Part shown: in pieces, positions 442-53,777 of the stretch
Numbering within the stretch: the stretch's first letter is position 1
How the letters are laid out: each line of letters begins with the position of its first letter
Origin: Medakamo hakoo
Lineage: Eukaryota; Chlorophyta; Trebouxiophyceae; Coccomyxaceae
DNA length: 64,000 bases
NCBI GenBank assembly: GCA_026636295.1
Contig: CP089450.1
Span: 1 to 64,000 of the forward strand
Direction of reading: 5' to 3'
Position numbers and translations under genes: made by a program
The notes under the pieces: generated by a model
What the model saw: the letters and a program-made list of their open reading frames with translations, nothing else
What the model was told of the DNA's origin: nothing
Databases searched by the model: none

Positions 442-1434
442 CTACGGCCCAACGCAAGGCACACCCCCACGCGTGCCGTCAACATGCATCAAAGCCACTT
501 CATACAGTTTGCATGGGCAAGTTGAACAGTAATTGTTTTCTTCCACGTGGAAACTTTGCATGCCCAGGTCCAGCAGCGCCGACATGGTGTCGACCGCCTC
601 ATCCGGTTTTTCGACATGCAACTCAATGAGGGCTTGAGTGACAGGTAGAGGGTGGGTTTTCCTTGTGAATGCGTCAAGGACCTGCCACTCAGCGCCCTCG
701 ATGTCCACCTTCAGCACGTCCACCCAGGCATGGCCTCGTTGCTCCATGATGGTAGACAAGCTGAGCCCAGGCCTGTTGATGCCCTGAATCGATTGCGCGC
801 CGTCAGTGGCAGCCAGGCCAACAGCCGTAAAATTAATACCAGGCACGGCAGCGACCCTGGCGGCAGCTGCCTCGCTCAACGTGGGGTCAAACGTCCACAC
901 CGAGCAGGCCGTGCGGTTTAAAATGGCTCTCTCAAAAGATGTGTCGCCATTGGAGCCAAACGAATAGACAACGCAGCCCGGGCGTTGGAGTAGAGCGTCC
1001 ACGCCGCAAACCCACTTGCCGCCGTCAGCAAGGGACCCGACTTTTTCCACTGTGTATGGGCAGCGGTAAAAATCCCGGAACGGGTCAATCCACAGGGCAC
1101 CTGTGGAACGGTGAAAGCACCCTCGTTCCCAGTCACCGGGAGCGGCACGCATTGCTGCGACCAGCTTGTCCGCCGCTTCTCGCTGCCGTATGTAAGCGTC
1201 GGAGGCCACTTCCGACGATATAAGACCAGTCCGCGCCGCAGTGCTTGTCACAACATCTGCGCTTGTGGCGAAGTGGGCACGTGTACGTAAAGCTGCGCTG
1301 CGAGATTGAACGCTGCGTGAGACGAATCGAGACGCGACGACCATAACAACAAAGCAACAAGTAGCAACGGCCCTGACTGTATTTTTGCACGCCAATGATT
1401 GTCGAGGCTGGCTGATCAAGAAAGAGGATGCCAT
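442..1434 (-). CDS. METTL24-like SAM methyltransferase (Methyltransf_22 type), type II membrane protein
   Basis: 330 aa from ATG at 1434. A hydrophobic segment at about residues 20-37 is a likely signal anchor. The body carries family landmarks: DGGKWVCGVD, then CVVYSFGSNGDTSFE (SAM-binding Gly-rich turn), then VWTFDP and DVLKVDIEGAEWQVL, the acidic DIEGxEW motif shared by METTL24-like and FkbM methyltransferases. The C-terminus is Cys-rich (CSTCPCKLYE). Anchor plus lumenal catalytic domain suggests sugar O-methylation in the Golgi; the acceptor is unknown. It diverges from the fucosyltransferase-like gene at 1683, sharing a 248-bp intergenic region. Family assignment is by motif; substrate is inference. 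Confidence 0.8.
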   Translation of the reverse strand: MASSFLISQPRQSLACKNTVRAVATCCFVVMVVASRFVSRSVQSRSAALRTRAHFATSADVVTSTAARTGLISSEVASDAYIRQREAADKLVAAMRAAPGDWERGCFHRSTGALWIDPFRDFYRCPYTVEKVGSLADGGKWVCGVDALLQRPGCVVYSFGSNGDTSFERAILNRTACSVWTFDPTLSEAAAARVAAVPGINFTAVGLAATDGAQSIQGINRPGLSLSTIMEQRGHAWVDVLKVDIEGAEWQVLDAFTRKTHPLPVTQALIELHVEKPDEAVDTMSALLDLGMQSFHVEENNYCSTCPCKLYEVALMHVDGTRGGVPCVGP

Positions 1435-1682
1435 GTTCGATACGGTGTGCGATAGACCTTAAAAGTGCGATAATATGATTATGAGCGCGATGTATGTACG
1501 ATTATCCTTGATAGAGGATCACACGCTTACACTGAACTTGCAAAATTTTGATGTCAAATATTGCTGGAGGAGTTTGGCCTGTGTCGACTGCTTTAGTTTA
1601 AAGATATCTTTTGCAGACGCGGGCTTACTTAAACACAGGCGCCTATTCCGCCTCAAGACAGGCCACACTTTGACTTACCAAC
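1435..1682. promoter_or_regulatory. Divergent intergenic promoter region
   Basis: 248 bp separate the start codons of two head-to-head genes. The region is AT-rich relative to the flanking coding sequence and must hold both promoters. A CCTTAAAA stretch lies about 22 bp upstream of the minus-strand ATG. No other motif is certain. Confidence 0.4.
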
Positions 1683-2918
1683 ATGCCTGGATCCTTTCGC
1701 CGGTTATCCGCAGCCTTAGTCGTCTACGTGCTTGCACTCTTGCACGTCTGTCACCAGACACGTGCCGTTCAATCCAAGTTAAGACGCAGTGGCTTGCATG
1801 ACAGGGGGCGCAGACGCTCAAATATTGTCCTCGCAGATCCAGACGATGGCAAGGACGGCAGCGGAGACTACGACCTTGACAATGTCGCCGCGAACCTTGC
1901 GACCGCATTGCACGACGGCCAAACATGCATCAGCGCGGAAAGCCCTACTCTAATCTATGAGCCCGTAAATGGCTGGGGAGACCAGCTTCGAGGCATGGTC
2001 TCCGCTTTTTACGTGGCCCTCCTAACTTGCAAAGTTTTCGCAGTGCACTGGACGCCGGCCTATAATTTGACCAACTACTTTGATGTTCCCGCGGCTTTGG
2101 TGTCGTCTGCGACGGGGACCATATCGGGCACCGCAAAGATTTCCATAATCAACGATTTCGAGTACTTTTTAAACGAGTCCAACCTGGTGAGCATGCAAGA
2201 GCTCAACACGTCGGTAACGCTGCGTACAAACGCGTACCAGTGGTTTGAGGCCATCAACGTTCCCGCTCTTCAACCACAAGCTGAGTTTTATGGCCTAGCA
2301 GGGCGCAGCCGATACGAACTGTTTGCAATCGCCATGCGCGTTTTATTGCAACGTCCGTCTGCGCGCGTGGAAAAAAGAGTGCAAAGCATGCTGCCAGGTC
2401 GTAATGCGTTTGCATTTGGTAAAAGGCAAAAGCAGAATGCCACGCTGGGTAAGGTCATTGGTGTTCAAATTCGAACAGGCGGAGTTGGTGAAGGCTGGCG
2501 AGACCTTCCGCGGCACCCACTGTCCAGTGTTTCATGTTTCGCGGACGAGGCGCGCCGCGTGTGCCTTGACAACTGCACGATCTTTTTGACGACTGATTCG
2601 CGCCACGCGTCCGCCGAGTTTAAACGACTGACCGCACCTTTTACGACGCAGTTCATGGAATGGCCCGGCGACATTTTACACACCGACGTGCCTATATCTG
2701 TGCAGCGAGCACCATCCAATGTGGACCCATGGGAAAAGACGTTTTTGGATTGGGTGACCCTTTCTCAAGTCGACATCTTATTAATGTCGCACAGTGGGTT
2801 TGCGTGGACTGCGGCATGGGCCGGTGCTGTGCCTTACGTCAGGAAATACAGACAACGCAACGAGTGCGCGTGGACAAATTTTGACAAAAGCAATAACTTG
2901 ATGCTAGAGGTGTTGTAA
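1683..2918 (+). CDS. Fucosyltransferase-like glycosyltransferase (GT23/GT37/GT11 fold)
   Basis: 411 aa. The N-terminus (RRLSAALVVYVLALLHVC) is a signal anchor. GWGDQLRGMVSAFYVALL at about residues 98-115 resembles the G-x-G/D-N/Q-x-L helix that begins the catalytic domain in plant xyloglucan and other fucosyltransferases. IGVQIRTGG near residue 258 matches the HxRxGD-type GDP-fucose motif, FLTTDSRHA is the following strand/loop, and DILLMSHSGFAWTAAWAG near residue 360 matches the late S-x-F/S motif. It is therefore probably a GDP-fucose-using Golgi enzyme, although the subfamily cannot be fixed by eye. Several N-x-S/T sites fit a lumenal domain. Confidence 0.7.
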   Translation: MPGSFRRLSAALVVYVLALLHVCHQTRAVQSKLRRSGLHDRGRRRSNIVLADPDDGKDGSGDYDLDNVAANLATALHDGQTCISAESPTLIYEPVNGWGDQLRGMVSAFYVALLTCKVFAVHWTPAYNLTNYFDVPAALVSSATGTISGTAKISIINDFEYFLNESNLVSMQELNTSVTLRTNAYQWFEAINVPALQPQAEFYGLAGRSRYELFAIAMRVLLQRPSARVEKRVQSMLPGRNAFAFGKRQKQNATLGKVIGVQIRTGGVGEGWRDLPRHPLSSVSCFADEARRVCLDNCTIFLTTDSRHASAEFKRLTAPFTTQFMEWPGDILHTDVPISVQRAPSNVDPWEKTFLDWVTLSQVDILLMSHSGFAWTAAWAGAVPYVRKYRQRNECAWTNFDKSNNLMLEVL

Positions 2919-3274: not shown

Positions 3275-3307
3275 CCCAATTGAAGGGAGGCAGTAAACAT
3301 GAAAACA

Positions 3308-3385: not shown

Positions 3386-4441
3386 ATGCATTTTCGTACT
3401 TATTGGCGATGGGTTCCTACGGCAACGGGTTGCGTTGTCGTCACTTTGACAGCTTTCCTCCTGCATTCAAGTCTTATGAGAGAACAAGGCCGTGCTGGCA
3501 TGCCTCATGCTGTCACACAAGTGGCAATATCGCGCGCATCGAGCAAGCGCGCCGTTTTCGAGACGCACAAGACCGTGCCAACTTTCTTCGACGAGGCTGG
3601 GGCGGCCATGTTCACCGAACGCATGCGCATTCTACAGAACGACGTGTTTAAGGACAAAAAAGTGCAAAACGTTGGCATTGCCGGTTCCTCTTACACTGTT
3701 GTTGGAACAAGTCCGTCATTTTGGGACTCAGTCAGCGACCAAAGCTGGGAACCGCACACTTACCGGCGCTATTTTCAGTATGTTACTCCGTCGACGACGC
3801 TTGTTGACTTTGGAACTTGGATTGGGCCCACCTTGCTTTTTGGCGCAACGCGCGCCGCCAGGGCTTTTGGTATCGAAGGCGACCCCGTCGCGTACGCTGA
3901 AACATTGGTGAATCTTCAGTTGAATGCGCCTAACCTGAAAAATGTGCACTTGCAACCAGGATGTGTTTCAACCCAGGCTGAAGTCAAGACCATGAAAAGT
4001 GCAGCTCCCGGAAACAGCTGTTCTGGGGTCGGAGATGCTGTTGCCTGTGGGGAGGTGAAGGCGTCCTGGCAAGTGCAGTGCTTTGATCTGCCTTTCTTGT
4101 TTAAGCACTGGGGTATCGACCTTGACTTGGACACCTTCATCAAGATTGACATTGAAAGTTATGAGTGCACCCTGGTGCCGGCCATTGCGGACTGGATCCT
4201 GGGTGCTCGGTACAAGCCAACAGTGTCACTTGCCATGCACAGCCAAGTGGCCCCATGCAATGCCGTCGAATATGCCAGTATCACTGGTCTGGTCCGTGCA
4301 TACACGTACGTTGAGTGCTCATCAGCCTCTGGCGTAACTGTTTTCTCAGGTGCTGAGCTAGAGGCAAGCAGCATTGGGACGCTATGCCCGTCGGGTGAAC
4401 TGCTTTTGTCTGACTTTATGCCACCAGCGGACGGTTTCTGA
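3386..4441 (+). CDS. FkbM-family SAM methyltransferase, membrane anchored
   Basis: 351 aa. Residues about 8-28 (WVPTATGCVVVTLTAFLL) form a signal anchor. The SAM-binding strand-loop is LVDFGTWIGPTLLFGA followed by the acidic strand end AFGIEGDP. The late FkbM motif is DTFIKIDIESYECTLVP. These three blocks, with this order and spacing, are typical of Methyltransf_21 (FkbM), a family that methylates sugar hydroxyls in bacteria and is expanded in many algae and protists. Its neighbours are a fucosyltransferase-like gene and a glycan acyltransferase, which supports O-methylation of a surface glycan. The acceptor is unknown. Confidence 0.82.
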   Translation: MHFRTYWRWVPTATGCVVVTLTAFLLHSSLMREQGRAGMPHAVTQVAISRASSKRAVFETHKTVPTFFDEAGAAMFTERMRILQNDVFKDKKVQNVGIAGSSYTVVGTSPSFWDSVSDQSWEPHTYRRYFQYVTPSTTLVDFGTWIGPTLLFGATRAARAFGIEGDPVAYAETLVNLQLNAPNLKNVHLQPGCVSTQAEVKTMKSAAPGNSCSGVGDAVACGEVKASWQVQCFDLPFLFKHWGIDLDLDTFIKIDIESYECTLVPAIADWILGARYKPTVSLAMHSQVAPCNAVEYASITGLVRAYTYVECSSASGVTVFSGAELEASSIGTLCPSGELLLSDFMPPADGF

Positions 4442-4772: not shown

Positions 4773-7235
4773 TCAGCTTCGAGGCAGTACATGCGGCGCC
4801 TGTTGCAGCAACTGTTGCTCAAGCGCTCCCGCCAGAGACTGTGAAAAGGCTTTTCCTATGTGATGGGCGTCTGTGTAGACAACCACATTACCGATGATCG
4901 GCGGACACGTATTTCCCGGGCAAAAAATGTCATCAAAGGACATGCGATGCATCATTGGGTATATGCTCGCCGCAATTTCCATGATGCCGTCACTCAGCCC
5001 CTTTTGCCTTGGCACAGAGCATGCCGACATATCTTTGCCGTCAGCTTGGCGGTGCGTCACTTGCGCCAAGCAGTTCAAAACGTGCGTGCCCATGTCAGGC
5101 GTGGATTTGATGTACAGGACTGGGATGTCAGCCGACACGAATTTTTCGGCCATCTGCACAATGCCTCGTGCAATATCAGTCGCATTGGCACCCTCGTCTG
5201 CTGGCCTGCGGTGTTTGTATCCAACCATGACGACAGCAGACGGCCGCATGTGTAGCACTTTTTCAATGGACGCCAAATTCCATTTTTGACACGCGACATT
5301 AGGTTGCGCTTTTCGCAGCATAACCAGGGTCAGCGTAGGCGGGCAACTAGTCTTCTGCAAATTGGTGACTTGCACCCCCAGGCGTTGGCCAACGATACGA
5401 AAAGCGTGGTGCCACCGGCCACCATGCGAGTCGCCTATGATGACGATGTGGTGACGATTCGACGGCGGCGGCGGTGTCGCTAGCGTGACTGCAAGGGCAT
5501 TGGGGTAATAATGCGTGTCGTCAATCCGGCCGTCCTCTCCGGTGCGTGCAGCCGCAGACAAGAGTTCGTCAACAGACTTGTCATTGAGTGGGGCGCACCG
5601 GTACAGCGATGCGTCGGCGCCTGGGAAGGGTCTGGTGGCGTTCGGACCAAAAAAATTGTTGCACTCTGGAGAGGGTGGGAGGCTGCGTCGTGGGAGGTGG
5701 ACGTCAACCGGTGCGGTGGCATGCGACCACGGAGCTTCGGCCGTCGACGTGTTAACCACGGATGTGGTCGGCTGGAGCGCATCGATTGCCCAGGCTGAGG
5801 ACGGTGCAGCCTTGTACAGGGCGAACGATACGGACAGTGTGACGGTGGCCATGAGCACTGTCATTGCCAGGGCGCCGACGTCGGCAGAGACGCCGTAGTA
5901 GAGGGAGGTGGTTTTGAAGGTGTATTGCGTTGCGAGGCCGCCACTTGCGCCGTGAATGCCATTGGCAGGGGCCAGGCCATGGTCCGGCTTGCCACCTCCG
6001 TCAGCACTCCCTCCAACCTGTCTGAACCGGTCTTCCCAACACCGTTTGCATGCGTGGGCCAGGGCAAACGAAATTATGCACACGAACACGCCATCCGCCA
6101 CAGCTCCGTCTACTGCGCGCCCCGTAGCAAATGGATACATGACCACCACCGGCCAGTGCGCCAGGTACAGAGAGTAGGAGATGTCGCCGATGTATTGTAG
6201 CCACGGGTGGGACAGGGTCGAGATCAATGCATGCACCTTGGCATTGCTGCTGCCCTCGTTGGTCTCGTCGTCGCCTGCCCACAGGGTCACAACTGTGCCC
6301 AGGGTGGGCACCAGGGCGGCCAAGCCTGGGAAAACCGTGCGTTGTGTGAATAGGGTGGCGCTGGCGCCAATGGCAGCCAGGCCGCCCGCGGCGACTGCCG
6401 TGCGCAGCCTACTCTGTGAAAGGGTGCTGCTCATGTAATGGCGGAGGCCCCCCCCCGGCGCGTTTTGTGACCGCCGCCCGTCCGGTGCCAGAGCAGCAAG
6501 CAGACCGCCCATGCCAAGCTCGTACAGCCGGACATGTGTAGCAAAGTAGCCCGTTTCGGGCCAAAACTGGGAGTAAAGCAGGGCAACGACAAGTGAGGCG
6601 GCGCACAGGATAGCCATGGGCACGGCATACCACGCCGGATGGGGAGGGAGAGGCCGCACCACGCCGTCGGAGAAAAAAGGCGCCGTTGAAGGGAGTACAA
6701 GGGTCGAGGGCATGCTAGATGGCGCCCCTTTTGCGCTGTTGAGATAACGTCTCCGCAGGCACGCCACTGCGACCATCATGAGAGGCCACCCAAAATAAAA
6801 TTGTTCTTCTACGGCCAGGGACCAAAAATGCTGCAGCGGGCTGGGCGCCTCGTTCTGGGCGTGGTAGTCAACGGCCCGACGGACGAGCATCCAATTCTCG
6901 GCGTAGCCTGCGCTGGCAGCAATGTCGGTTGCCGTCGATGCCCACGTCCAAGACGGCATGCAAAGGACGGAAGCAATGGCCACCAGGAACAGCGTCAAAC
7001 TGGCGGCTGGAAGCAGCCGCCGAGCCCGACGGGCGTAGAAACGAGGCAAGTCAACCCGCCCAGTGGACGCAATCTCACGGACCAGGTGGCCTGTGATGAG
7101 GTAGCCAGATATAACAAAGAACACGTCTACGCCGATGTAACCACCCCGCATGTACGCCGGCCACACATGGAAAGCCAAAACCAGGAGAACAGCGACGGCA
7201 CGCAAGGCTTGAATGTCGTGCCGAAAGGTCGGCAT
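4773..7235 (-). CDS. Membrane O-acyltransferase (acyltransferase 3, OafA/YrhL type) fused to SGNH domain
   Basis: 820 aa from the ATG at 7235, chosen because MPTFRHDIQALRAVAV aligns with the start of the paralogue at 7564; an in-frame ATG 21 bp upstream is possible. The N-terminal half has the acyltransferase-3 signature: QALRAVAVLLVLAFHVWP with the conserved Arg/His, GGYIGVDVFFVISGYLI, then about ten hydrophobic helices. The C-terminal third is an SGNH esterase-like domain with IVIIGDSH (block I) and a terminal D-x-x-H block (TDAHHIGKAFS). In bacteria this fusion transfers acetyl or other acyl groups to cell-surface polysaccharides. It is head-to-head with its paralogue. Confidence 0.9.
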   Translation of the reverse strand: MPTFRHDIQALRAVAVLLVLAFHVWPAYMRGGYIGVDVFFVISGYLITGHLVREIASTGRVDLPRFYARRARRLLPAASLTLFLVAIASVLCMPSWTWASTATDIAASAGYAENWMLVRRAVDYHAQNEAPSPLQHFWSLAVEEQFYFGWPLMMVAVACLRRRYLNSAKGAPSSMPSTLVLPSTAPFFSDGVVRPLPPHPAWYAVPMAILCAASLVVALLYSQFWPETGYFATHVRLYELGMGGLLAALAPDGRRSQNAPGGGLRHYMSSTLSQSRLRTAVAAGGLAAIGASATLFTQRTVFPGLAALVPTLGTVVTLWAGDDETNEGSSNAKVHALISTLSHPWLQYIGDISYSLYLAHWPVVVMYPFATGRAVDGAVADGVFVCIISFALAHACKRCWEDRFRQVGGSADGGGKPDHGLAPANGIHGASGGLATQYTFKTTSLYYGVSADVGALAMTVLMATVTLSVSFALYKAAPSSAWAIDALQPTTSVVNTSTAEAPWSHATAPVDVHLPRRSLPPSPECNNFFGPNATRPFPGADASLYRCAPLNDKSVDELLSAAARTGEDGRIDDTHYYPNALAVTLATPPPPSNRHHIVIIGDSHGGRWHHAFRIVGQRLGVQVTNLQKTSCPPTLTLVMLRKAQPNVACQKWNLASIEKVLHMRPSAVVMVGYKHRRPADEGANATDIARGIVQMAEKFVSADIPVLYIKSTPDMGTHVLNCLAQVTHRQADGKDMSACSVPRQKGLSDGIMEIAASIYPMMHRMSFDDIFCPGNTCPPIIGNVVVYTDAHHIGKAFSQSLAGALEQQLLQQAPHVLPRS

Positions 7236-7563: not shown

Positions 7564-9954
7564 ATGACAACCTCTTTTCGTACTGATATCCAAGCCTTGC
7601 GCGCGGTAGCCGTCCTGTTCGTTGTGGCATATCATGTATGGCCCAACCACATCCGTGGTGGGTACATTGGCGTGGACGTGTTCTTCGTCATCTCGGGGTA
7701 CCTCATCACCGCGCATTTACTGCGCGAAGTGGCGTCCACGGGGCGCATCAACTTGCGTCGCTTCTACGCCCGCCGGGCACGCAGGCTATTGCCCGCCTCT
7801 TGTCTGACAATCGTGGGAGTAGGGCTGGCATCTTACTTGTGGATGCCGCCTCTGACGTGGAGCGTCACTGCATTCGACATCGCCGCCAGTGCTCTGTACG
7901 CCCAAAATTGGGCTCTAGTTCACCGCTCGGTAGATTACCTGGCTCAGGACCAAGCACCGAGCCCGCTGCAGCATTTCTGGTCTCTAGCTGTTGAAGAGCA
8001 GTTTTACGTGGTGTGGCCGCTTGTCATGGCGGGCGTGGGAGCGTTCTGGAAGCGGAGGCGGACTGCACGCGCGGGCGACGTTTGCGACAGCTGTCGCCAC
8101 GCGCAGCCACAACCACCACCTCCAAGCCACACAGTCTACGCCGTGCCTATGGGCGCTTTGTGCGCCTTGTCATTTGCCGCGGCCCTGCACGTCGCTTACA
8201 GTAACCCTGCACCCGGCTATTTCATGACGCACGTCCGCCTCCATGAGTTAGGCGCAGGAGGTTTGCTCGCTCTGTGGGTGCCGGGCGGCGGCGCCTGCGC
8301 GGCTACCGATGACTTTGGCATGCCGCATGCCGTAGACACTCACGTGCCTTTATGGTCAGGCCTTTGTTATGCACTGAGCATGGCTGCAGGCTTGTCTGTC
8401 ATTGCCGCCACGGGCTTCCTCTACACGCCCCGCCTGCCTTTTCCTGGCGTCGCAGCGTTGCTGCCGGTGATTGGCACGGCCGCGGCCAATCCGCGGCCAA
8501 TCATTGCGGCGGGAGGAAGAAGAGGCATTGTTGGCGCGTCTTCGCTCATAACGACCCAAATTATCGCCCACCCCTGGCTTCAATATGTCGGCGACATCTC
8601 GTACTCTTTGTATCTGATACACTGGCCGGTGGTGGTAATTTACCCCTTTGCTACTGGAAAGCGCGTGGACGCTTCCCTAGCGGACAGCGCTCTCGTTTTG
8701 TTCATGTCATGGGGCCTGGCGCATGTGTCCAAGCGTTACTGGGAGGACAGGTTCCGTGCCGTCGCAGTAAATGACGCAGTTTTGCACCATAGCAACAAGC
8801 GTACGTCCCAAGTAGCGCTGGTGGAACACGGGACGGTTGTCGCAACATCCGTCGCTAACGCGCAATCCAAAAGTAACAGCGCCATGGGCTTGGCGGTAAT
8901 ATCGACGGCAATTGCTTTGATTGTGAGTGGGAGCCTGCGCTGCGCGGTGGAGTTTCGTCCGGGTGGGCGGTATGCTATCCATGGGCCACCCGCAACTACT
9001 ATTGTTCGAAACACTTTGCATCCTGGGGCGGAGGCCTGGGTACGTGACGCGCCGATCAACAATAAAGTATCGGTACTGACTTTTGATGATATCAAGCCGT
9101 CTGTGGACATTGCTGCCGTTGACAACGGTCCAACGTCTTCCCAGACCGGTCGGCTGTGCATGTCAAGTCCTGCTGCCAGCGAGGTCGTGCGCTGTCCTAG
9201 GAATGCCGATGTCGGACTAAATTCGTCTTGGGCTGGGCTGCAGCCGCCGACCGGTAAGCATCACATTATCTTGCTAGGTGACTCGCATGCCGTGCACTGG
9301 CTCCCTGCTCTCCAAGCCGCTGCAGCCACGGCAAATTGGACTGCTTCAAGCATTGCCAAGCAATCTTGCATGCCTGCCAATGCAACAATTGGGTACCGCG
9401 GCGTCCCGTACCCTGCGTGTAGGACGTGGACAAAAAACGCTGTCAAATGGATCCTTATGCAGCGTCCTTCTGCAGTAATTTTTAGTTCATATGCTCGCCA
9501 TCGTTTGCATAAATTGGCCACAGCCGATGACCAGATGGCTTTAGCCGCTGGGGTAGTGGACATAGCCAAGGAAATTGCTAAAGCCAACATTTCGGTTTTA
9601 GCAATCAAGCATACTCCTGTGCAGAGCCGTCATGTGCCTGAATGCCTGGCATCGGGCCAACGTCGGGGACTTGACGTAAATGAGGCTATCGCTTTGTGCT
9701 CTTCAAGGGCAACAGACGCTCTAAATAACAGCAACACCTTTGTTTTAGCCGCGCGCCAGTTCCCCATGATGCACATGCTAGACTTTGAAGACGCATTCTG
9801 CGATATAAATGGAACTTGTCCCCCAGTTATTGGCAACGTGCTTGTGTACCGCGATAGGCATCACCTCACTTCGACGTTTTCGGAAAGTTTGGCACCAGCG
9901 TTAAGACGGCGAATGATACAAGCTTTGCCTTGGCTTGCAAAACATGACGTGTAG
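7564..9954 (+). CDS. Membrane O-acyltransferase (acyltransferase 3) fused to SGNH domain, paralogue
   Basis: 796 aa. Same architecture as the divergent neighbour: MTTSFRTDIQALRAVAV start, AYHVWP with the catalytic His, GGYIGVDVFFVISGYLI, a multi-helix membrane region to about residue 480, then an SGNH domain with HIILLGDSHAVHWLPAL and a terminal RDRHHLTSTFSESL block. Middle loops differ in length and sequence from the paralogue, while motifs and both termini are conserved, so the duplication is old. A third copy survives only as a tail at the telomere. Likely role: acyl transfer to a surface or secreted glycan. The acyl donor and site are unknown. Confidence 0.9.
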   Translation: MTTSFRTDIQALRAVAVLFVVAYHVWPNHIRGGYIGVDVFFVISGYLITAHLLREVASTGRINLRRFYARRARRLLPASCLTIVGVGLASYLWMPPLTWSVTAFDIAASALYAQNWALVHRSVDYLAQDQAPSPLQHFWSLAVEEQFYVVWPLVMAGVGAFWKRRRTARAGDVCDSCRHAQPQPPPPSHTVYAVPMGALCALSFAAALHVAYSNPAPGYFMTHVRLHELGAGGLLALWVPGGGACAATDDFGMPHAVDTHVPLWSGLCYALSMAAGLSVIAATGFLYTPRLPFPGVAALLPVIGTAAANPRPIIAAGGRRGIVGASSLITTQIIAHPWLQYVGDISYSLYLIHWPVVVIYPFATGKRVDASLADSALVLFMSWGLAHVSKRYWEDRFRAVAVNDAVLHHSNKRTSQVALVEHGTVVATSVANAQSKSNSAMGLAVISTAIALIVSGSLRCAVEFRPGGRYAIHGPPATTIVRNTLHPGAEAWVRDAPINNKVSVLTFDDIKPSVDIAAVDNGPTSSQTGRLCMSSPAASEVVRCPRNADVGLNSSWAGLQPPTGKHHIILLGDSHAVHWLPALQAAAATANWTASSIAKQSCMPANATIGYRGVPYPACRTWTKNAVKWILMQRPSAVIFSSYARHRLHKLATADDQMALAAGVVDIAKEIAKANISVLAIKHTPVQSRHVPECLASGQRRGLDVNEAIALCSSRATDALNNSNTFVLAARQFPMMHMLDFEDAFCDINGTCPPVIGNVLVYRDRHHLTSTFSESLAPALRRRMIQALPWLAKHDV

Positions 9955-40059: not shown

Positions 40060-40086
40060 TTTGTTGACTTTGAGTCTCGCTGCAAC

Positions 40087-45583: not shown

Positions 45584-46317
45584 CGTTTATCACGTTGACG
45601 TTCCCGGTTTATAGCATCGCCCCCGGTGTAATTTGGCAAGGTCAACATGTCTGCGCGGCAAGTTTTTTCTCGTAAAAAACCTTTTTTGCGGTCATGGGGG
45701 TTCTGTGAAAGAACTGCTTTTTCTGGGCATGTGCATGTAAATACAAACGATGGCCTTGCGTGCCCAGAAAGACAACGGTTGAAATGGCACAAGAACATGT
45801 AACACGTCTTTCTTACGAAGTTGTTTCGGGGAGAGAATGGTTGAATCATAACACTGTGCCACCATGCATAGAAAGGGATTTCTTGATTGGTCAGCTCGTC
45901 AGGCTATGTTTGGTACACGCTCTCATCCAGAACGTAGGATGGTGTGCCGCAGGCTGCCACCATCAAAATGGACGTAATTAACCGTGGGATGGTGCAAATG
46001 AGTATTTACAACGATGGCCTTGCCCACCCGATGAAAGGATACGATCCACGTTTTCGCAAGTCCTTTTGTCTTTTGTCTTCTTTTGATCATTCACATGATG
46101 TCATGGGTTTTGAGAATGACAGACAATCCTTTGCGTGACATCCGGTACCATGCCGGTTGTTTTTATGGCAGCCAGATCGGCTTTAGGGGAAGCCCTCTCT
46201 TCTTAAGATTTCTTAGGGTTTTCTTAGGGTTTAACACGACCACATGCATGTGGTAGTGTTACATGGAAGCATCAGGAACACGTCCTTGACACTCCAGACA
46301 AAACATTTTAAAAAGTT
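45584..46317. other. Intergenic region
   Basis: 734 bp between a plus-strand gene and the 3' end of the collagen-like gene. No credible gene. An AT-rich stretch with T-runs lies at 45660-45690, and a tandem TCTTAGGGTTT pair at 46211-46232. Confidence 0.45.
46211..46232. repeat. Two tandem TCTTAGGGTTT units (telomere-like)
   Basis: An exact 11-bp unit occurs twice, each containing TTAGGG. It sits in an intergenic region about 85 bp from the 3' end of the collagen-like gene. It is too short to be called an interstitial telomere. Confidence 0.6.
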
Positions 46318-49300
46318 TTATCCCGGAACAACCGAAAGTAACCCACAAAGAGCAACTGCCTCCACAGTCGCAGTACCCGGGGAAGAACCCGCTCTGACTG
46401 TGCATTCGCACAATCCGCTGGCGAGGGTAGGAGCAATGGAAACGATTCCTAAGTTAGCTCCTACCGTCGCGTCATTAATCTTGCAGTCACAGCCAGTCAG
46501 CTGGTCACCAGGACGAGCACAAGTAGCAGAAGAAGTAGTCAAAGCGCTGGCAACAATTGGAACTGCGATTGTGGAGTAAGTGTTCATATCCCACAAATAC
46601 TGGGGACCAGCAGGGCCTGTCGCGCCCGTGGCGCCGTCCAGACCCTGGGCGCCCGTCGCGCCAGTGATGCCGTCCAGACCCTGGGCGCCGGTCGCGCCAG
46701 TGATGCCGTCCAGACCCTGGGCGCCGGTCGCGCCAGTGATGCCGTCCAGACCCTGGGCGCCGGTCGCGCCAGTGATGCCGTCCAGACCCTGGGCGCCGGT
46801 CGCGCCAGTGATGCCGTCCAGACCCTGGGCGCCGGTCGCGCCAGTGATGCCGTCCAGACCCTGGGCGCCCGTCGCGCCAGTGATGCCGTCCAGACCCTGG
46901 GCGCCGGTCGCGCCAGTGATGCCGTCCAGACCCTGGGCGCCGGTCGCGCCAGTGATGCCGTCCAGACCCTGGGCGCCGGTCGCGCCAGTGATGCCGTCCA
47001 GACCCTGGGCGCCGGTCGCGCCAGTGATGCCGTCCAGACCCTGGGCGCCGGTCGCGCCAGTGATGCCGTCCAGACCCTGGGCGCCGGTCGCGCCAGTGAT
47101 GCCGTCCAGACCCTGGGCGCCGGTCGCGCCAGTGATGCCGTCCAGACCCTGGGCGCCGGTCGCGCCAGTGATGCCGTCGCAGTGATGCCGTCTGGGCGCC
47201 GGTCGAGCCGGTGAAGCCACGGAAGCCACGTTCGCCGGTCGCGCCAGTGATGCCGTCCAGACCCTGGGCGCCGTCGCGCCAGTGATGCCGTCCAGTGATG
47301 CCGTCTGGACCCTGGGCGCCGGTCGCGCCAGTGATGCCGTCCAGACCCTGGGCGCCCGTCGCGCCAGTGATGCGTCCAGACCCTGGTCGAGCCGGTGAAG
47401 CCACGGAAGCCACGCGCCGGTCGCGCCAGTGATGCCGTCCAGACCCTGGGCGCCGTCGCGCCAGTGATGCCGTCCAGACCCAGGCCACGGAAGCCACGCG
47501 GCCGGTCGCGCCAGTGATGCCGTCCAGACCCTGGGCGCCGTCGTCCAGCCAGTGATGCCGACCCTCCGTCCAGACCCTGGGCGCCGGTCGAGCCGGTGAA
47601 GCCACGGAAGCCACGTTCGCCGGTCGCGCCAGTGATGCCGTCCAGACCCTGGGCGCCCGTCGCGCCAGTGATGCCGTCCAGACCCTGGGCGCCGGTCGCG
47701 CCAGTGATGCCGTCCAGACCCTGGGCGCCGGTCGAGCCGGTGAAGCCACGGAAGCCACGCGGGCCGGTCGCGCCAGTGATGCCGTCCAGACCCTGGGCGC
47801 CGGTCGCGCCAGTGATGCCGTCCAGACCCTGGGCGCCCGTCGCGCCAGTGATGCCGTCCAGACCCTGGGCGCCGGTCGCGCCAGTGATGCCGTCCAGACC
47901 CTGGGCGCCGGTCGAGCCGGTGAAGCCACGGAAGCCACGTTCGCCGGTCGCGCCAGTGATGCCGTCCAGACCCTGGGCGCCGGTCGCGCCAGTGATGCCG
48001 TCCAGACCCTGGGCGCCGGTCGCGCCAGTGATGCCGTCCAGACCCTGGGCGCCGGTCGCGCCAGTGATGCCGTCCAGACCCTGGGCGCCGGTCGCGCCAG
48101 TGATGCCGTCCAGACCCTGGGCGCCCGTCGCGCCAGTGATGCCGTCCAGACCCTGGGCGCCGGTCGCGCCAGTGATGCCGTCCAGACCCTGGGCGCCGGT
48201 CGAGCCGGTGAAGCCACGGAAGCCACGCGGGCCGGTCGCGCCAGTGATGCCGTCCAGACCCTGGGCGCCGGTCGAGCCGGTGAAGCCACGGAAGCCACGC
48301 GGGCCGGTCGCGCCAGTGATGCCGTCCAGACCCTGGGCGCCGGTCGCGCCCGTCGCGCCGTCGATGCCCTGCGGACCCTGCGGGCCCTGGTCGCCTTCGA
48401 CGCCCTGGGCGCCCGTCTCGCCCTGGGCGCCCGTCGAGCCGGTGAAGCCGCGGAAGCCGCGGCGGCCGCGGGCGCCGGTCGCGCCCGTCGCGCCGTCGAT
48501 GCCCTGCGGACCCTGCGGGCCCTGGTCGCCTTCGACGCCCTGGGCGCCCGTCTCGCCCTGGGCGCCCGTCGAGCCGGTGAAGCCGCGGAAGCCGCGGCGG
48601 CCGCGGGCGCCGGTCGCGCCCGTCGCGCCGTCGATGCCCTGCGGACCCTGCGGGCCCTGGTCGCCTTCGACGCCCTGGGCGCCCGTCTCGCCCTGGGCGC
48701 CCGTCGAGCCGGTGAAGCCGCGGAAGCCGCGGCGGCCGCGGGCGCCGGTCGCGCCCGTCGCGCCGTCGATGCCCTGCGGACCCTGCGGGCCCTGGTCGCC
48801 TTCGACGCCCTGGGCGCCCGTCTCGCCCTGGGCGCCCGTCTCGCCCTGGGCGCCCGTCTCGCCCTGGGCGCCCGTCGAGCCGGTCACGCCCCGGCGGCCG
48901 GGCAGGCCCGGGAAGCCGCGGCGGCCACGAGGGCCGGTCGCGCCCGTCGCGCCGTCGATGCCCTGCGGACCCTGCGGGCCCTGGTCGCCTTCGACGCCCT
49001 GGGCGCCCGTCTCGCCCTGGGCGCCCGTCTCGCCCTGGGCGCCCGTCGAGCCGGTCACGCCCCGGCGGCCGGGCAGGCCCGGGAAGCCGCGGCGGCCACG
49101 AGGGCCGGTCGCGCCTGTCACGCCCTGAATGCCAGTCTCACCCTGGGCGCCCGTCTCGCCCTGGGCGCCCGTCGAGCCGGTCACGCCCCGGCGGCCGGGC
49201 AGGCCCGGGAAGCCGCGGCGGCCACGAGGGCCGGTCGCGCCCGTCGCGCCGTCGATGCCCTGCGGACCCTGCGGGCCCTGGTCGCCTTCGACGCCCGTGG

Positions 49301-49820
49301 CGCCCGTCTCGCCCTGGGCGCCCGTCGAGCCGGTCACGCCTTGCACACCCTGGGCGCCGGTCTCACCCGTCACGCCCTGGATGCCCTGGGCGCCCGTCGC
49401 GCCCGTCACGCCTTGCACACCCTGGGCGCCGGTCTCACCCGTCACGCCCTGGATGCCCTGGGCGCCCGTCGCGCCCGTCACGCCTTGCACACCCTGGGCG
49501 CCCGTCGCGCCCGTCACGCCTTGGGCGCCAGTTTCACCCTGGTCACCCATAGCACCAGTCTCCCCAGTAACGCCGGTTGGGCCGTCTGGCCCAACCATGG
49601 CGTGTCCCTTAATACCACCTTTGCCGTGGAATATATCCATCAAATGCTCGACCCGCTCGTTCAGTCCATGAAACAGGCTGTGAGGCGCGTCCTGAAGCAA
49701 TGTCCGGGCCGGCAGGCTGGCAGGGGAAGGCAGGCCTGCAGGCAACGATGCAGTGGCTGGCACAGTTAATGCCATGCAAACCACCGCCGCCGAAGTGGCG
49801 AGGCACCACTTGGCCGGCAT
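46318..49820 (-). CDS. Secreted collagen-like (Gly-X-Y) repeat protein, frame disrupted
   Basis: ATG at 49820, signal peptide [15 protein letters not shown], a short non-repeat region (residues about 27-75) and then Gly-X-Y triplets starting at [13 protein letters not shown]. The frame stays collagenous to about 47560. It is then lost through a 400-bp patch of broken repeat units (about 47180-47560), and in the raw frame ends at 46584 as Arg-rich nonsense. A second frame resumes perfect Gly-X-Y and ends in a Cys-containing non-collagen domain ([30 protein letters not shown]) at 46318. So the intact protein was probably more than 1,100 aa, and the patch is either real decay or an assembly error in a collapsed repeat. 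Likely an extracellular fibre, and a candidate carrier for the locus' glycans (GAT and GIT triplets are Thr-rich). Confidence 0.8.
46660..47163. repeat. 36-bp tandem array, 14 units
   Basis: A 36-bp unit encoding 12 residues ([12 protein letters not shown]) repeats 14 times in register; a fifteenth unit starts at 47164. Units are nearly identical, differing mainly in GCGCCG versus GCGCCC at one site, which is silent in the protein. Such uniformity implies recent expansion or homogenisation. Confidence 0.95.
48361..48900. repeat. 135-bp tandem array
   Basis: Units begin at 48361, 48496, 48631 and 48766, exactly 135 bp apart (45 residues each, with [16 protein letters not shown]). The fourth is lengthened by extra GETGAQ blocks. 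Related longer units with [13 protein letters not shown] continue to about 49300. Confidence 0.9.
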
Positions 49821-50477: not shown

Positions 50478-51449
50478 CTACACGCCCGCCTCGGTCAAGT
50501 GGTACGATGTCATGCGTGGGTTGAACACCGATTTCAGGCCGTGGTTGGCCATGTAAGCAGCCATGCGGTTCCACATGTCAGCGTCGACGTAAGTGTCGGT
50601 TGTGTCGCAAGAGCGGTACCTCCACCCGTAAAAATCAGCCAACCTCCATGACGCGCTGTTGTGGACTAGGCGGCGGCCTACAGGTGGGTAATTGTCGTAG
50701 GCTAGGGGGCCCTCAAATGCTGGGAACTCGTGTGTCCGAAACATGGACTTGGTGTAAACAAACGAAGCCAAGGAAAAGCGGGCGTACGTCTGTGCTAGGA
50801 CAGCCAGGTGTTCGGGCGTCCACGCATCGTCATCGTCCAGGTGGGTGAGTATGACGCCTTGCATGTTGCCCCTAGCCGCATTGTAGGACATTTCCACCCG
50901 TTCCAGGCCGTGGTTTAAAGCTTCGGCGCCAGCGCACCGCCACACGCTGTCCATCTCAGGCCACCGCTCCCGCTCTCCAGGCACATTCAAGTTGGCCCAC
51001 ATGAGCTTTTTAGGCGGCACGCGGCTCAGGACAGGGTGCAGTGTGGCCACTTGAGAGGGGTCGAACGCGTCGCCCGTCAAGTACAGCACCCAGTTGGGGT
51101 TGGTTTGATTCAGAATGGAAGACACCGAGTGGTTGAGGAGGGAAAGCGTGCGGCCTTCCGGTCGGTCATGTGTCGCCATGTTGATCATAAACACAAGGTC
51201 AGGATGGACAGCAGTCGCCTCCCTCGGTGTTTCTGTCCCATTTACGTGTGAGCGCAGGGCCTCAAGGCGTGCTGCAACCTTTGACTGAGGACGCCGGCTT
51301 TGATCAAACAGCAAACGCCAAATTAGCGACGTACATACAATAAGTGTAAGCAGGGCTAGCCTGCCGCGCGTTTGCGCGGTCCGTTGACGGATTGTATGTC
51401 GCATCATTTTGATGACGGTGTAAGATTTTAGAGTCTCATTCGTAAGCAT
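50478..51449 (-). CDS. GT2 glycosyltransferase (paralogue B)
   Basis: 323 aa from ATG 51449; the ATG at 51407 (MMRHTIRQRTAQ) is an alternative start directly before the anchor (RLALLTLIVCTSLIWRLLF). Core motifs parallel paralogue A: MINMATHDRPEGRTLSLLNH, SVSSILNQTNPNWVLYLTGD, GVILTHLDDDDAWTPEHLAV and NSASWRLADFYGWRYRSCD. The two copies lie 13 kb apart on the same strand and differ most in their N-terminal anchor and stem, as expected after an old duplication. Confidence 0.85.
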   Translation of the reverse strand: MLTNETLKSYTVIKMMRHTIRQRTAQTRGRLALLTLIVCTSLIWRLLFDQSRRPQSKVAARLEALRSHVNGTETPREATAVHPDLVFMINMATHDRPEGRTLSLLNHSVSSILNQTNPNWVLYLTGDAFDPSQVATLHPVLSRVPPKKLMWANLNVPGERERWPEMDSVWRCAGAEALNHGLERVEMSYNAARGNMQGVILTHLDDDDAWTPEHLAVLAQTYARFSLASFVYTKSMFRTHEFPAFEGPLAYDNYPPVGRRLVHNSASWRLADFYGWRYRSCDTTDTYVDADMWNRMAAYMANHGLKSVFNPRMTSYHLTEAGV

Positions 51450-51530
51450 GCATGCTTTTACGTGTTGTTGGATACGTGTACTCAAAAGCAGAAACTACAA
51501 GCCCTTTACAATGATGGCAATACACATGCT

Positions 51531-53777
51531 TTAGGATCGGTCTCCTTCCAAAACCACAGTTGGCTGCATCGAGGCCGCCCACGCTTCCGAGCGCCACCGG
51601 CGCACGAGTTCCAAATTGTTTGCGAGGCCAACCTGCGACTGGGGCTTCCACGCACCATACTTTTCGATGAGCCTGCGTCGAAAAATGAGCGGGCTGGCCT
51701 GGACTTGAAGCTTGTCTGGCCCGTCAACAAGGACGACATGGTTGCCTACCTCAACGCTGGCCAAAGCAAACTGCAGATCGTCGCGCACTACTAAATGAAC
51801 CAGGCTGCTCAAATGATGAGGCCGCCATACGGCTGCCTCATCCAGATGCGCCACCCACTCCGACGCCACCAGCGCGTTGAGGGCGTAATTGCGCGGAGCG
51901 TGCTGGCCGTCGCCGTGATGGTGCGGCAAGTTGTACCACCGCACAAAGTGCCCACCGCTTCCAATGGGCCCTGCATTCTTGGCGGCGTCCATGTACGCAT
52001 TTAGGCGAGGGCAGGCGTCGCCCACGATGACCAGCTCCCAGTTTTTGTATTCTTGGGCATACAAAGACTTGACGGCACGGTCCAGTGCACTTGTGTTGTT
52101 AAACGTAGACACAACCACCGTCACCCAGGGACGGTCAGCAGATGCTGTAGCAGTTGGGTGATGGTACTCCAACCGCATAGGTGGCGGCAGCGGCTCGGCT
52201 TGCAACGTGAGTGGTTTGCCATTGTACGTTTTCACCGCCCCAGGTCCCTCGTCCGGGTGTTCCGACCGGGCTAGCAGCTCAGCGATTCGAGGCTGGTGCT
52301 GTTGCCGGATCAGAGCCACCATGCGTTGGATCAAGGCGTTGCGCAAAAACGTAAAAGTGCCGCCTTCCAGCTGTCGATACTGAATGTAAGTCATGTGGCG
52401 GAGAGCGACAGACGGAAACTTGAACATGGTGCGCAAGATGAGGTCGTAGTCGTCGCCCACGGACAGGCCCCGCATGTGCCCACCCACAGCCAGGTATGCT
52501 TGCCGACTCCATGCACGCACGTGGTTGGGCACGCCCACAATGTGGCGCAACGTTCGGTGGTTGGGAATGGGGGCGGTGTGGGCCACCATCCACGCACCAT
52601 TCCTCAGCAGCCTGTACGGAGCGGCAGAACCAAATGCCATGTGAATGCTGTATTCGACGCATTTGGTGGAGTGCTCATACGGTTCAACGGCGTCAGAGTA
52701 GAAAAAACCCGCCGTCGGATAGCGGCGGTAGGCCGCTGCCAGCAGCTGGAGGCAGTCGGGTGTCAACTCGTCGTCGTGGTCGAGCTCAACAAGCATGGCG
52801 CCACGCGCTTGACCGCAGGCCTTGGCTTTGGAGCTGCCAATCAGGCCGTCGTTGCGGTCGCTACGCATGATGGAAATGCGCTCGTCGGCCGCGGCAAGGC
52901 CTTGCAAGCGGCGCCATGTGTGGGTGTGACCATCGGGCGAGTCGTCGTAGATGATCCACTCCCAGTTGGTGTAAGTCTGGTTCAGCAAGCTGGCGTGCGC
53001 TCTGTTGATATTGTCACCGATCTTGAATGCGGTCGTAACGACGGACATCAGCGGCGTCGCTCGCGGTCCAGCCCCATTCGTGGCTTGGATGCCGCGCCAG
53101 AAAAAAGACTCGATGGATGTGATGTTTACGTCACTGGCGGACGAGACATGAAACCAGGTACCACGTCGTTGAGGAGACAGCGCCTGCTCAAGGAAAGCAA
53201 ACTGTGCTTTGTCCGTGCCAATGGACACAATGACCTGCGGCCTTATATTTGCGACAATGGCACGGACGGTCGAGGGTGGAATGTGCGCGCCAGCGGGCAC
53301 GCCCTGGATGATGAGGTTGACTTGGGGGTCATCAAAGTCACCTGGTATTGATTCTTCGTCGCAAATAAAAACCAATACATCAATGTAAGTACCCCGAGGA
53401 GCGGATGGTTTTACTTTGATGTGCTTTCGTGCAGTGGCCGTCAATTCAGAGGCAAGATTCATCCACGGTGTGTCCGGTTGGACCGCAAGGGCCCGTGGTT
53501 GAGATGATACAAGCGATACACCCAGTGCTTTCGCGGGCTTGTGATCGGCATTTTCTCCCGTAGTGTTGCGGTCGACACTTAAAGGCGATGCCTGTGCCAG
53601 GTTATGCGCGGCTGTACGCAAGTGACTAGCTTTGTGGGAAACAACGGCTACGTAAGAAATGGCAAACAAAAAAGTACAAAGAAACCCTGCGCAAACAAAA
53701 AGTGGACACGCTCGCCGAGAGTGTCTCCTGAATTGTAAGGTGCGAAACGTGGTGTGCGCACGCGGTCTTGAAAACAT
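51531..53777 (-). CDS. Protein with two tandem GT2 domains
   Basis: 748 aa. Basic N-terminus then an anchor (PLFVCAGFLCTFLFAISYVAVV) and a stem of about 170 residues. GT2 domain 1 (about 245-480) has PLMSVVTTAFKIGDNINRAH, ASLLNQTYTNWEWIIYDDSP and GAMLVELDHDDELTPDCLQL with its D-H-D-D metal site. Domain 2 (about 550-740) has WVTVVVSTFNNTSALDRAVK, SLYAQEYKNWELVIVGD and SEWVAHLDEAAVWRPHHLSS, where the metal site is reduced to LDEAA, so it may be weakened or non-catalytic. Tandem GT2 pairs occur in polymerases of chondroitin and other glycans with alternating sugars. It is 81 bp upstream of the GT2 paralogue B. Confidence 0.82.
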   Translation of the reverse strand: MFSRPRAHTTFRTLQFRRHSRRACPLFVCAGFLCTFLFAISYVAVVSHKASHLRTAAHNLAQASPLSVDRNTTGENADHKPAKALGVSLVSSQPRALAVQPDTPWMNLASELTATARKHIKVKPSAPRGTYIDVLVFICDEESIPGDFDDPQVNLIIQGVPAGAHIPPSTVRAIVANIRPQVIVSIGTDKAQFAFLEQALSPQRRGTWFHVSSASDVNITSIESFFWRGIQATNGAGPRATPLMSVVTTAFKIGDNINRAHASLLNQTYTNWEWIIYDDSPDGHTHTWRRLQGLAAADERISIMRSDRNDGLIGSSKAKACGQARGAMLVELDHDDELTPDCLQLLAAAYRRYPTAGFFYSDAVEPYEHSTKCVEYSIHMAFGSAAPYRLLRNGAWMVAHTAPIPNHRTLRHIVGVPNHVRAWSRQAYLAVGGHMRGLSVGDDYDLILRTMFKFPSVALRHMTYIQYRQLEGGTFTFLRNALIQRMVALIRQQHQPRIAELLARSEHPDEGPGAVKTYNGKPLTLQAEPLPPPMRLEYHHPTATASADRPWVTVVVSTFNNTSALDRAVKSLYAQEYKNWELVIVGDACPRLNAYMDAAKNAGPIGSGGHFVRWYNLPHHHGDGQHAPRNYALNALVASEWVAHLDEAAVWRPHHLSSLVHLVVRDDLQFALASVEVGNHVVLVDGPDKLQVQASPLIFRRRLIEKYGAWKPQSQVGLANNLELVRRWRSEAWAASMQPTVVLEGDRS

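Follow-up and report, generated by a model that had tools for sequence, protein, structure and literature searches.

A low-GC island of candidate glycan genes at the left end of a Medakamo hakoo chromosome, with related gene sets at two other ends

Gene content of the island

Medakamo hakoo is a one-micron freshwater alga (Trebouxiophyceae) for which a thick cell wall has been reported (PMC9871001). The published assembly consists of 18 contigs, two of them organellar, with a GC content of 72.7%, and the 16 chromosomes are described as having TTAGGG telomeres on both flanks (PMC9871001). The stretch of DNA analysed here (the window, 64,000 bp) corresponds to positions 1-64000 of contig C3 (1,283,613 bp), in a genome of 15,638,232 bp in 16 contigs, and covers the left end of C3. 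It contains an island of 31 gene models (442-56028), which a sequence-only reading of the window had described as a eukaryotic, subtelomeric, clustered glycan locus with around 20 glycan genes among about 30. This description is borne out by the telomere at 1-112 and by family matches: 16 of the 31 models score above the curated Pfam or NCBIfam cut-offs for glycosyltransferase (GT), methyltransferase, acyltransferase, sugar-nucleotide-enzyme or transporter families, and six more have weaker support.

The 16 models above cut-off correspond to Methyltransf_22/FkbM, AT3-SGNH (two genes), FUT8-type (with its exons joined), GT10, the class I methyltransferase at 20552, TPT, GT64, GT31 (two genes), Methyltransf_11, Glyco_tranf_2_4 (two genes), DegT, a NeuD/PglB/VioB acetyltransferase and a double GT2. 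The six weaker ones are an XG_FTase-like protein (1683), an FkbM-like protein (3386), a protein of a family referred to here as family X (27972), two GT2-like proteins (36940 and 50478) and a DUF5672 protein (43064), and five others encode a BNR_4 protein, a collagen-like protein and three B3 proteins. The genes of the island, in order of position, are as follows.

442-1434, minus strand: FkbM/Methyltransf_22 methyltransferase with a hydrophobic N-terminal stretch (PF13383, 72.4 bits; PF05050, 31.3 bits; hydropathy)
1683-2918, plus strand: fucosyltransferase-like protein (XG_FTase), weak (PF03254, 19.7 bits, below the cut-off of 23.4)
3386-4441, plus strand: FkbM-like methyltransferase, weak (TIGR01444, 25.4 bits, below the cut-off of 37.7, E 1.6e-5; no Pfam match)
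4773-7235, minus strand: AT3-SGNH (OafA-type) O-acyltransferase a (PF01757, 97.5 bits; PF19040, 81.1 bits)
7564-9954, plus strand: AT3-SGNH O-acyltransferase b, inverted paralogue of a (41% amino acid identity; Pfam)
13729-15120, plus strand: BNR_4 protein, possibly secreted (PF15892, 66.3 bits; N-terminal hydropathy 1.58)
15443-16888, minus strand: protein with a hydrophobic N-terminus (hydropathy), no assigned Pfam, NCBIfam or PHROG family
17093-18705, minus strand: FUT8-type (GT23-like) fucosyltransferase in two exons (PF19745, 44.7 bits once the exons are joined, cut-off 27.6)
18807-20339, minus strand: GT10 fucosyltransferase (PF00852, 96.9 bits)
20552-22351, plus strand: class I methyltransferase (PF13649, 27.8 bits, cut-off 27)
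22661-23314, plus strand: B3 DNA-binding domain protein (PF02362, 32.1 bits, cut-off 30.1)
23483-24724, plus strand: TPT/nucleotide-sugar-transporter-like membrane protein (PF03151, 41.6 bits)
24821-25831, minus strand: GT64 (exostosin/EXTL-type) glycosyltransferase (PF09258, 159 bits; best solved relatives EXTL3 and EXTL2)
26118-27968, minus strand: GT31-type glycosyltransferase (PF01762, 29.8 bits)
27972-28967, minus strand: family X protein, GT-A-like fold, invariant EDD motif (no Pfam family)
29007-30008, plus strand: methyltransferase (Methyltransf_11, class I; PF08241, 36.7 bits)
30070-31059, minus strand: Glyco_tranf_2_4 glycosyltransferase (PF13704, 40.8 bits)
31189-32343, minus strand: GT31-type glycosyltransferase (PF01762, 37.3 bits)
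32437-33591, plus strand: protein with a hydrophobic N-terminus, transferase-like by eye only (no family)
33743-35443, plus strand: protein with a hydrophobic N-terminus, exostosin-like by eye only (no family)
35473-36798, minus strand: protein with a hydrophobic stretch, resembling a transferase by eye only (unassigned in Pfam and NCBIfam; a single weak PHROG match, function unassigned)
36940-37866, minus strand: GT2-like protein a (PF00535, 21.2 bits, below the cut-off of 23.3)
38024-39256, plus strand: DegT-type sugar 4-aminotransferase (PF01041, 100.5 bits; 7mfo, E 8.3e-41)
39436-40059, minus strand: NeuD/PglB/VioB-family sugar N-acetyltransferase (TIGR03570, 169.1 bits, cut-off 160.8)
40171-41268, plus strand: Glyco_tranf_2_4 glycosyltransferase (PF13704, 34.1 bits; start codon listing)
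43064-44152, plus strand: DUF5672 protein, a family without assigned function (PF18922, 93.2 bits)
46584-49820, minus strand: collagen-like protein with a hydrophobic N-terminus and threonine-rich GXY repeats (PF01391, 356 bits; tandem repeats; translation)
50478-51449, minus strand: GT2-like protein b, paralogue of 36940 (PF00535, 15.3 bits, below cut-off)
51531-53777, minus strand: double-domain GT2 glycosyltransferase (PF00535, 98.4 bits; 62-71% homologues P0001-P0004)
54257-55048, plus strand: B3-domain protein (PF02362, 25.3 bits, below the cut-off of 30.1)
55432-56028, plus strand: B3-domain protein (PF02362, 24.0 bits, below cut-off)

Among the three fucosyltransferase-like genes counted in the sequence-only reading, GT10 and FUT8 are firm and the third (1683-2918) is weak, its structure predicted without homologues reaching a pLDDT of 32. 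Three of the four methyltransferases that it counted lie above their cut-offs and the FkbM-like gene at 3386 lies below; judged by family, both predicted class I methyltransferases are of generic types, with no substrate assigned. The two open reading frames (ORFs) of the FUT8-type gene were counted as one gene, and a frameshift was rejected as the explanation for their separation because a putative 86-bp GT-AG intron (18030-18115) brings back a single frame. No one GT family stood out when family X was analysed with VIA-align; GT25 was among those considered, the criterion being closeness of the GT-A fold to COLGALT1. The start of the second Glyco_tranf_2_4 gene is likely to lie at about 40171, as the longer ORF (39448-41268) would overlap the acetyltransferase gene. 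The collagen-like ORF shifts frame in its C-terminal part, where an ORF in another frame (46505-48298) overlaps it. Beside this gene, a degenerate interstitial telomere-like string with two TTAGGG units was observed at 46213-46229, by means of a pattern defined post hoc. PHROGs gave nothing informative for the proteins lacking a Pfam family, no Rfam family reached its gathering threshold over the window, and a tRNA scan of the window found none. A Pfam scan (E 0.001) of 79 of the 147 ORFs from gene-free stretches of the window, from which the shorter overlapping ORFs and most of the second copy of a direct repeat (described below) were omitted, returned no families.

Golgi type II enzymes have a hydrophobic stretch near the N-terminus. 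Such a stretch, defined as a mean hydropathy of at least 1.6 over 19 residues within the first 120, is present in 10 of the 13 GT or GT-like proteins, the three others being family X (1.45), one Glyco_tranf_2_4 protein (1.13) and the other Glyco_tranf_2_4 protein, which was measured on the ORF with the doubtful start. The DegT and NeuD proteins have no N-terminal hydrophobic anchor.

These last two proteins are encoded by adjoining, convergent genes (38024 and 39436). The nearest solved relative of the DegT protein is L136 of Mimivirus (7mfo, E 8.3e-41; the next molecule, 2po3, has an E value of 2.5e-14), and a lysine is kept, HETK of the query being aligned with HHTK of L136; this we take to be the pyridoxal phosphate lysine. 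The acetyltransferase exceeds the TIGR03570 cut-off and has as solved relatives PerB (4ea7, 3.3e-30) and VioB (7txp, 3.6e-23), the comparison being with these two proteins rather than with Mimivirus L142 itself. A hexapeptide acetyltransferase and a DegT domain are naturally fused in the relatives P0135, P0146 (from the fungus Hyaloraphidium curvatum) and P0161, which supports a single pathway. In Mimivirus, L136 and L142 are reported to make UDP-Vio4NAc from an intermediate that also feeds rhamnose synthesis (PMC9614988). The M. hakoo pair would imply a 4-acetamido-4,6-dideoxy sugar, and, by analogy, its substrate is probably a UDP-4-keto-6-deoxyhexose from the rhamnose route of the host.

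Base composition and the two edges of the island

The sequence-only reading had not mentioned base composition, and the low-GC character of the island is an addition to it. GC is 0.557 for positions 113-56,200 without the collagen gene, as against 0.747 for the next 50 kb of C3 and a mean of 0.709 for the first 10 kb of each of the 15 other left ends. Windows of 2 kb with a GC below 0.64 account for 26 of 28 in the island and for 4 of 100 outside it. Third-codon-position GC is 0.55-0.74 in every island ORF except the collagen gene, and the spacers have a GC of 0.504, so the entire block is shifted, beyond codon choice. The left end of C11 (L045), for its part, has an evenly lower GC over its first 10 kb (0.66-0.69) than most ends, with no ORF of 200 amino acids before 4.6 kb.

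A composition that is low in genes and spacers alike would also be expected of a low-recombination host region, akin to a big outlier chromosome or a mating-type region, in which GC-biased gene conversion has been lost and the glycan genes are passengers or serve mating recognition. The outlier chromosomes of Mamiellophyceae are indeed described as lower in GC, the big one being linked to mating (PMC13242883, PMC6731263). We nevertheless consider such a region improbable here: the island terminates in a telomere, outside subtelomere-like blocks, its gene content is of the type found on the small outlier chromosome (SOC) of Mamiellales, and neither RWP-RK nor any other mating regulator is present among the Pfam hits of the island ORFs, for which reason a mating-type region was rejected.

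The features at and around the two edges, together with a relic within the island, are the following.

1-112, plus strand: telomere, (AACCCT)18.8, found by repeat search, its unit matching the TTAGGG reported for M. hakoo (PMC9871001)
137-307, plus strand: AT3-SGNH acyltransferase relic comprising the final 56-57 residues (tblastn, 49-54% amino acid identity to both intact copies)
44360-44794, no strand assigned: relic of a second DegT and NeuD module with the same convergent layout (86% and 80% nucleotide identity to 38864-39090 and 39645-39835)
56868-62665, plus strand: direct repeat of 2,060 bp, copies at 56868-58925 and 60606-62665, 99.66% identical
58353-63108, plus strand: subtelomere-like zone of short blocks (84-89% nucleotide identity, E 1e-22 to 3e-73, in the same orientation as the left ends of C2, C7 and C16)

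The relics and duplications announced by the sequence-only reading were thus recovered, as the two relics, the inverted AT3-SGNH pair and the GT2-like pair (36940 and 50478, 63-64% amino acid identity). The AT3-SGNH a/b pair has a dN/dS of about 0.13, but with a saturated dS. The AT3-SGNH relic abuts the telomere and its N-terminal side is truncated on the telomere side, which is what breakage inside the gene followed by telomere healing would leave. At the inner edge, blocks of the subtelomere-like zone match the left end of C2 at 1.7-3.5 kb (three blocks, order kept), that of C7 at 1.6-1.8 kb and that of C16 at 0.8-0.9 kb. The island proper has no nucleotide match to the 15 other left ends, and the 50 kb inward of the zone has one match of 98 bp. 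Blocks of subtelomere type now lie 56-64 kb inside the chromosome, and the simplest reading is that the island was joined outside an older end. The direct repeat in this transition zone, judged by its near-identity, is a very recent duplication. A separate subtelomeric duplication was observed between the left ends of C2 (L037) and C9 (L043), which have a block of 1,087 bp (81%) in common.

The step in GC near 64 kb, and a near-identical 2-kb repeat at 57-63 kb that might mislead an assembler, are what would be seen if a low-GC fragment of another organism had been fused to C3 in the assembly. Such a chimaera seems very improbable, given that the end carries the host telomere unit, the transition zone resembles host ends, six island families have members at other ends of the host genome (see below) and the published assembly has a coverage of 246.8x (PMC9871001).

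If the island had arrived in a single recent horizontal transfer, with a giant virus, bacterium or other alga as donor and a telomeric position by chance, its low GC would be explained in a different way, as a donor signature. The overall and third-position values given above, set against the 72.7% of the genome, are in line with this, as are the proximity of DegT to Mimivirus L136 and the presence of AT3 in 10, and of DegT in all, of 14 prokaryotic control genomes. GT10, B3 and GT31, in contrast, were found in none of these 14 genomes, the hydrophobic N-termini and the apparent intron suit a eukaryote, and the related genes at two other ends of the genome are diverged (family X 55-58%). No viral hallmark family (capsid, polymerase, packaging ATPase) was present in Pfam scans of 40 ORFs and the 79 gap ORFs, and a giant-virus insertion was rejected for want of hallmark genes in the ORFs scanned. 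Scanning of viral contigs was negative for family X and DegT and yielded six relatives of the double GT2, at 36-40%, and a scan of genome contigs with the DegT homologue P0121, which reaches close relatives only, was empty. Taken together, these points make a single recent transfer rather unlikely.

Closer homologues come from metagenome data: those of the double GT2 (P0001-P0004, 62-71%) are on short metagenome contigs, and those of DegT, including P0121, have 66-70% identity. In P0204, family X lies beside a pyruvyltransferase domain. As P0121 and P0204 are both listed with a longest contig of 17,898 bp, one relative probably carries both, and, judging by these sequences, relatives probably carry glycan clusters too. 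An IMG/VR contig (L060:49-7393) combines a relative of the double GT2 (about 40%) with closely spaced genes for a collagen-like protein bearing a tail-collar domain, for a 2OG oxygenase and for a methyltransferase.

Related gene sets at other chromosome ends

Searches of the M. hakoo genome showed six island families (GT10, FkbM, AT3, family X, GT2 and B3) to recur at the right ends of C3 and C15 (C3R and C15R; the left end of C3 is referred to as C3L). At C15R, the genes lie, in kb from the end, at 18.2 (FkbM), 19.3 (AT3), 23.3 (FkbM), 29.1 (family X, a fragment), 31.8 (GT10), 33.3 (family X), 36.0 (B3), 48.2 (GT2), 62.5 (B3) and 68.7 (B3), and at C3R they lie at 6.8 (AT3), 11.8 (family X), 13.0 (FkbM), 24.3 (GT10), 26.0 (FkbM), 31.9 (GT2) and 45.1 (B3). 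The AT3 genes at these two ends were matched by the AT3 domain, the SGNH part not being assessed there. Lone genes were found near three further ends: GT10 at C7R (10.7 kb), FkbM at C16R (38.1 kb) and GT2 at C9R (42.4 kb).

The enrichment in the terminal 50 kb that the sequence-only reading had anticipated holds for some families and fails for others. All four GT10, all four family X (one a fragment), all four AT3 and six of seven FkbM (PF05050) genes lie within 50 kb of a contig end, in zones that make up 10.2% of the genome; with the genes of the window excluded, the counts are 3/3, 3/3, 2/2 and 5/6, respectively. For light-harvesting (LHC) genes, used as a control (23 matches in the genome, merged into 18 genes), it is one of 18. 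Counter to this trend, the genes outside the window that lie near ends number none of three for GT31, three of ten for GT2 and none of three for DegT (weak matches only). For B3, the enrichment depends on the cut: three of nine genome matches lie within 50 kb of an end and seven of nine within 70 kb, all seven at the three island ends. Matches were merged into genes by eye (GT10 from 5 to 4, GT2 from 13 to 11, GT31 from 6 to 5, AT3 from 7 to 4, besides the LHC genes), and these counts are descriptive, since genes at duplicated ends are not independent.

An ordinary cell-wall gene cluster, subtelomeric by accident and with no special dynamics, would fit the position away from ends of most GT2 genes and of the GT31 genes beyond the window, and also the thick wall reported for this alga (PMC9871001). 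Against such a cluster, which we regard as an improbable explanation, stands the recurrence of families at three ends, accompanied by relics, by inverted pairs and by the gene broken beside the telomere. Telomere proximity alone does not seem to bring glycan genes either. The comparison with the other chromosome ends bears out the sequence-only reading in that related sets exist at C3R and C15R; in the 15 other left ends, the ORFs sampled from the outermost 10 kb (72 of the 98 with at least 400 amino acids, 36 Pfam families) look like housekeeping genes, with one glycoside hydrolase and no GT or sugar methyltransferase among the matches listed (25 of 36 families), and a general telomere effect was rejected on this basis. 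In the adjacent 50 kb of C3 (79 ORFs with at least 260 amino acids, 34 Pfam families), the matches listed (25 of 34 families) likewise have a housekeeping look, the sole glycosyltransferase among them being UGGT, of the housekeeping machinery of the endoplasmic reticulum.

Between C15R and C3R, the GT10 genes have 91% nucleotide identity over 1,015 bp, so these two islands have at least one recent duplication in common, and their dN/dS of 0.24 over 325 codons indicates a gene under purifying selection. The copies at C3L are old, with 34% identity over 77 amino acids for GT10 and 55-58% amino acid identity for family X; as regards recent exchange between ends, the picture is mixed, with a close pair at C15R and C3R and diverged copies at C3L. 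Samples of C15R and C3R have GC values of 0.652 and 0.678, intermediate between the window and the genome.

On this evidence, it is fairly probable that a 56-kb low-GC glycan island caps C3L and is one of three related, exchangeable end islands (C3L, C3R and C15R) serving a surface glycan. Judging by its predicted genes, the most likely product is a glycan that is secreted or displayed on the cell surface, which the island would both synthesise and modify. In this scheme, the cytosolic aminotransferase and N-acetyltransferase would convert a UDP-4-keto-6-deoxyhexose to a 4-acetamido-4,6-dideoxy sugar, and activated sugar would reach the Golgi through the TPT-type transporter. Chains would be built by 11-13 glycosyltransferases (GT2, GT10, GT23-like, GT31, GT64 and GT-A-like), mostly N-terminally hydrophobic, in part on secreted carriers, the collagen-like protein for example, and would be capped by the methyl- and acyltransferases. 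The block was probably attached to what had been an ordinary end and later underwent breakage, with healing through the addition of a telomere; genes related to its own would have spread and been rearranged among chromosome ends. The B3 proteins are possible local regulators. Viruses, predators or bacteria may recognise the resulting coat, and antigen-like switching, or the diversification suggested by the sequence-only reading, can be put forward as a hypothesis.

Several observations weigh against this interpretation. With regard to function, four of the 31 proteins (15443, 32437, 33743 and 35473) have no Pfam or NCBIfam family, and no UDP-glucose or other sugar-nucleotide 4,6-dehydratase was found among the island proteins scanned, a search confined to the island and not extended to the rest of the genome. 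The collagen gene changes frame either genuinely, within its tandem repeats, or through errors in the consensus, and some of the island could accordingly be in decay or have been misread. With regard to recurrence, the set is known at only three of 32 ends, two of which share the recent GT10 duplication at 91% identity, which points to few independent events, and the GC figures for C15R and C3R come from only 3.3-3.4 kb each. With regard to attachment, the blocks of the inner zone are short (51-226 bp), which makes the argument for a buried subtelomere a modest one; further matches of the zone lie deeper, with one 51-bp block at 8.0 kb from the left end of C2 and one weak block at 9.6 kb from that of C12. 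This argument is weakened by how little DNA the left ends share among themselves, the largest block being the one of 1,087 bp between C2 and C9, and no interstitial telomere repeat was found at the presumed junction.

Comparison with known systems

The island was not found described in the open-access literature searched, and the terms 'glycosyl' and 'glycosyltransferase' do not occur in the main text of two Medakamo papers. Its closest counterpart is found elsewhere among the green algae. Contrary to the statement of the sequence-only reading that eukaryotes rarely cluster glycan genes, the outlier chromosomes of Mamiellales are a counter-example (PMC5082852). The SOC of these tiny green algae (Ostreococcus, Bathycoccus, Micromonas) is described as having a GC below that of the genome, an abundance of glycosyltransferases, methyltransferases and sugar transporters (TPT among them) and genes of mixed apparent origin (PMC5082852), all of which recalls the M. 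hakoo island (0.557 versus 0.747). In O. tauri, the expression and size of the SOC are reported to change with virus resistance (PMC5082852, PMC13242883); the M. hakoo island is not known to have such a link. Hypervariability from strain to strain is a further defining feature of the SOC. The SOC is a separate small chromosome and the island is the end of a 1.28-Mb chromosome; the island is called analogous to the SOC, by comparison of content and composition, and not a member of it. It also differs in belonging to the class Trebouxiophyceae, in having related sets at two more ends, and in its AT3 acyltransferases, B3 genes and collagen-like protein, the terms 'collagen' and 'B3 domain' being absent from the main text of the SOC paper (PMC5082852). 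It may be suggested, tentatively, that trebouxiophytes independently evolved a counterpart of the 'viral immunity chromosome' of Mamiellales, in which detachable low-GC glycan islands would be captured outside a former subtelomere, undergo breakage and healing there and be reshuffled from end to end with B3-type genes as local regulators, thereby re-dressing the surface with sugars of bacterial or giant-virus type.

Other systems share single aspects of the island. With related genes at several ends (C3L, C3R, C15R), it resembles in this respect a subtelomeric contingency family, a type of family defined also by recent exchange between ends and by switching or mutually exclusive expression. 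Surface-glycan transferases located at chromosome ends and spread between them are known from trypanosomatids (Leishmania SCG, Trypanosoma UGT; PMC5853035). One enzyme family is amplified in the trypanosomatids, whereas M. hakoo has multi-family sets at few ends, one of which includes donor-sugar enzymes. In Cyanidiophyceae, also small algae, genes are described as spreading among chromosome ends in addition to being acquired horizontally (PMC9812998); stress and metal genes are concerned there rather than a glycan set in a GC-outlier block. Short low-GC regions occur in another compact green algal genome, that of Chloropicon primus, and those named in the source contain polyketide synthase genes on three chromosomes (PMC6731263), unlike the glycan island.

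The R132-L143 cluster of Mimivirus, which includes the viosamine pathway (L136, L142), likewise places an L136-type aminotransferase and an N-acetyltransferase in the neighbourhood of genes for GTs, for a methyltransferase and for a carrier protein (PMC10117803, PMC9614988). The M. hakoo island differs in its cellular genome, its separate acetyltransferase gene, its eukaryotic-type GTs and transporter, and in the dehydratase, which was not found in the island. Outside Mimivirus, viosamine is stated to have been encountered in bacteria only (PMC10117803), and the aminotransferase/acetyltransferase pair suggests that a 4-acetamido-4,6-dideoxy sugar may be made by a cellular eukaryote. Glycan-gene outlier chromosomes linked to virus resistance were already known in Mamiellales; an apparent sugar pathway of bacterial or giant-virus type at a chromosome end of a trebouxiophyte is added here. 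A matching set in a distant freshwater green alga would show GC-outlier glycan loci to be a solution that recurs in tiny algae and not a peculiarity of a single order. M. hakoo, which is in culture and sequenced from telomere to telomere, could serve as a model for how such loci are acquired and for what recognises the coat.

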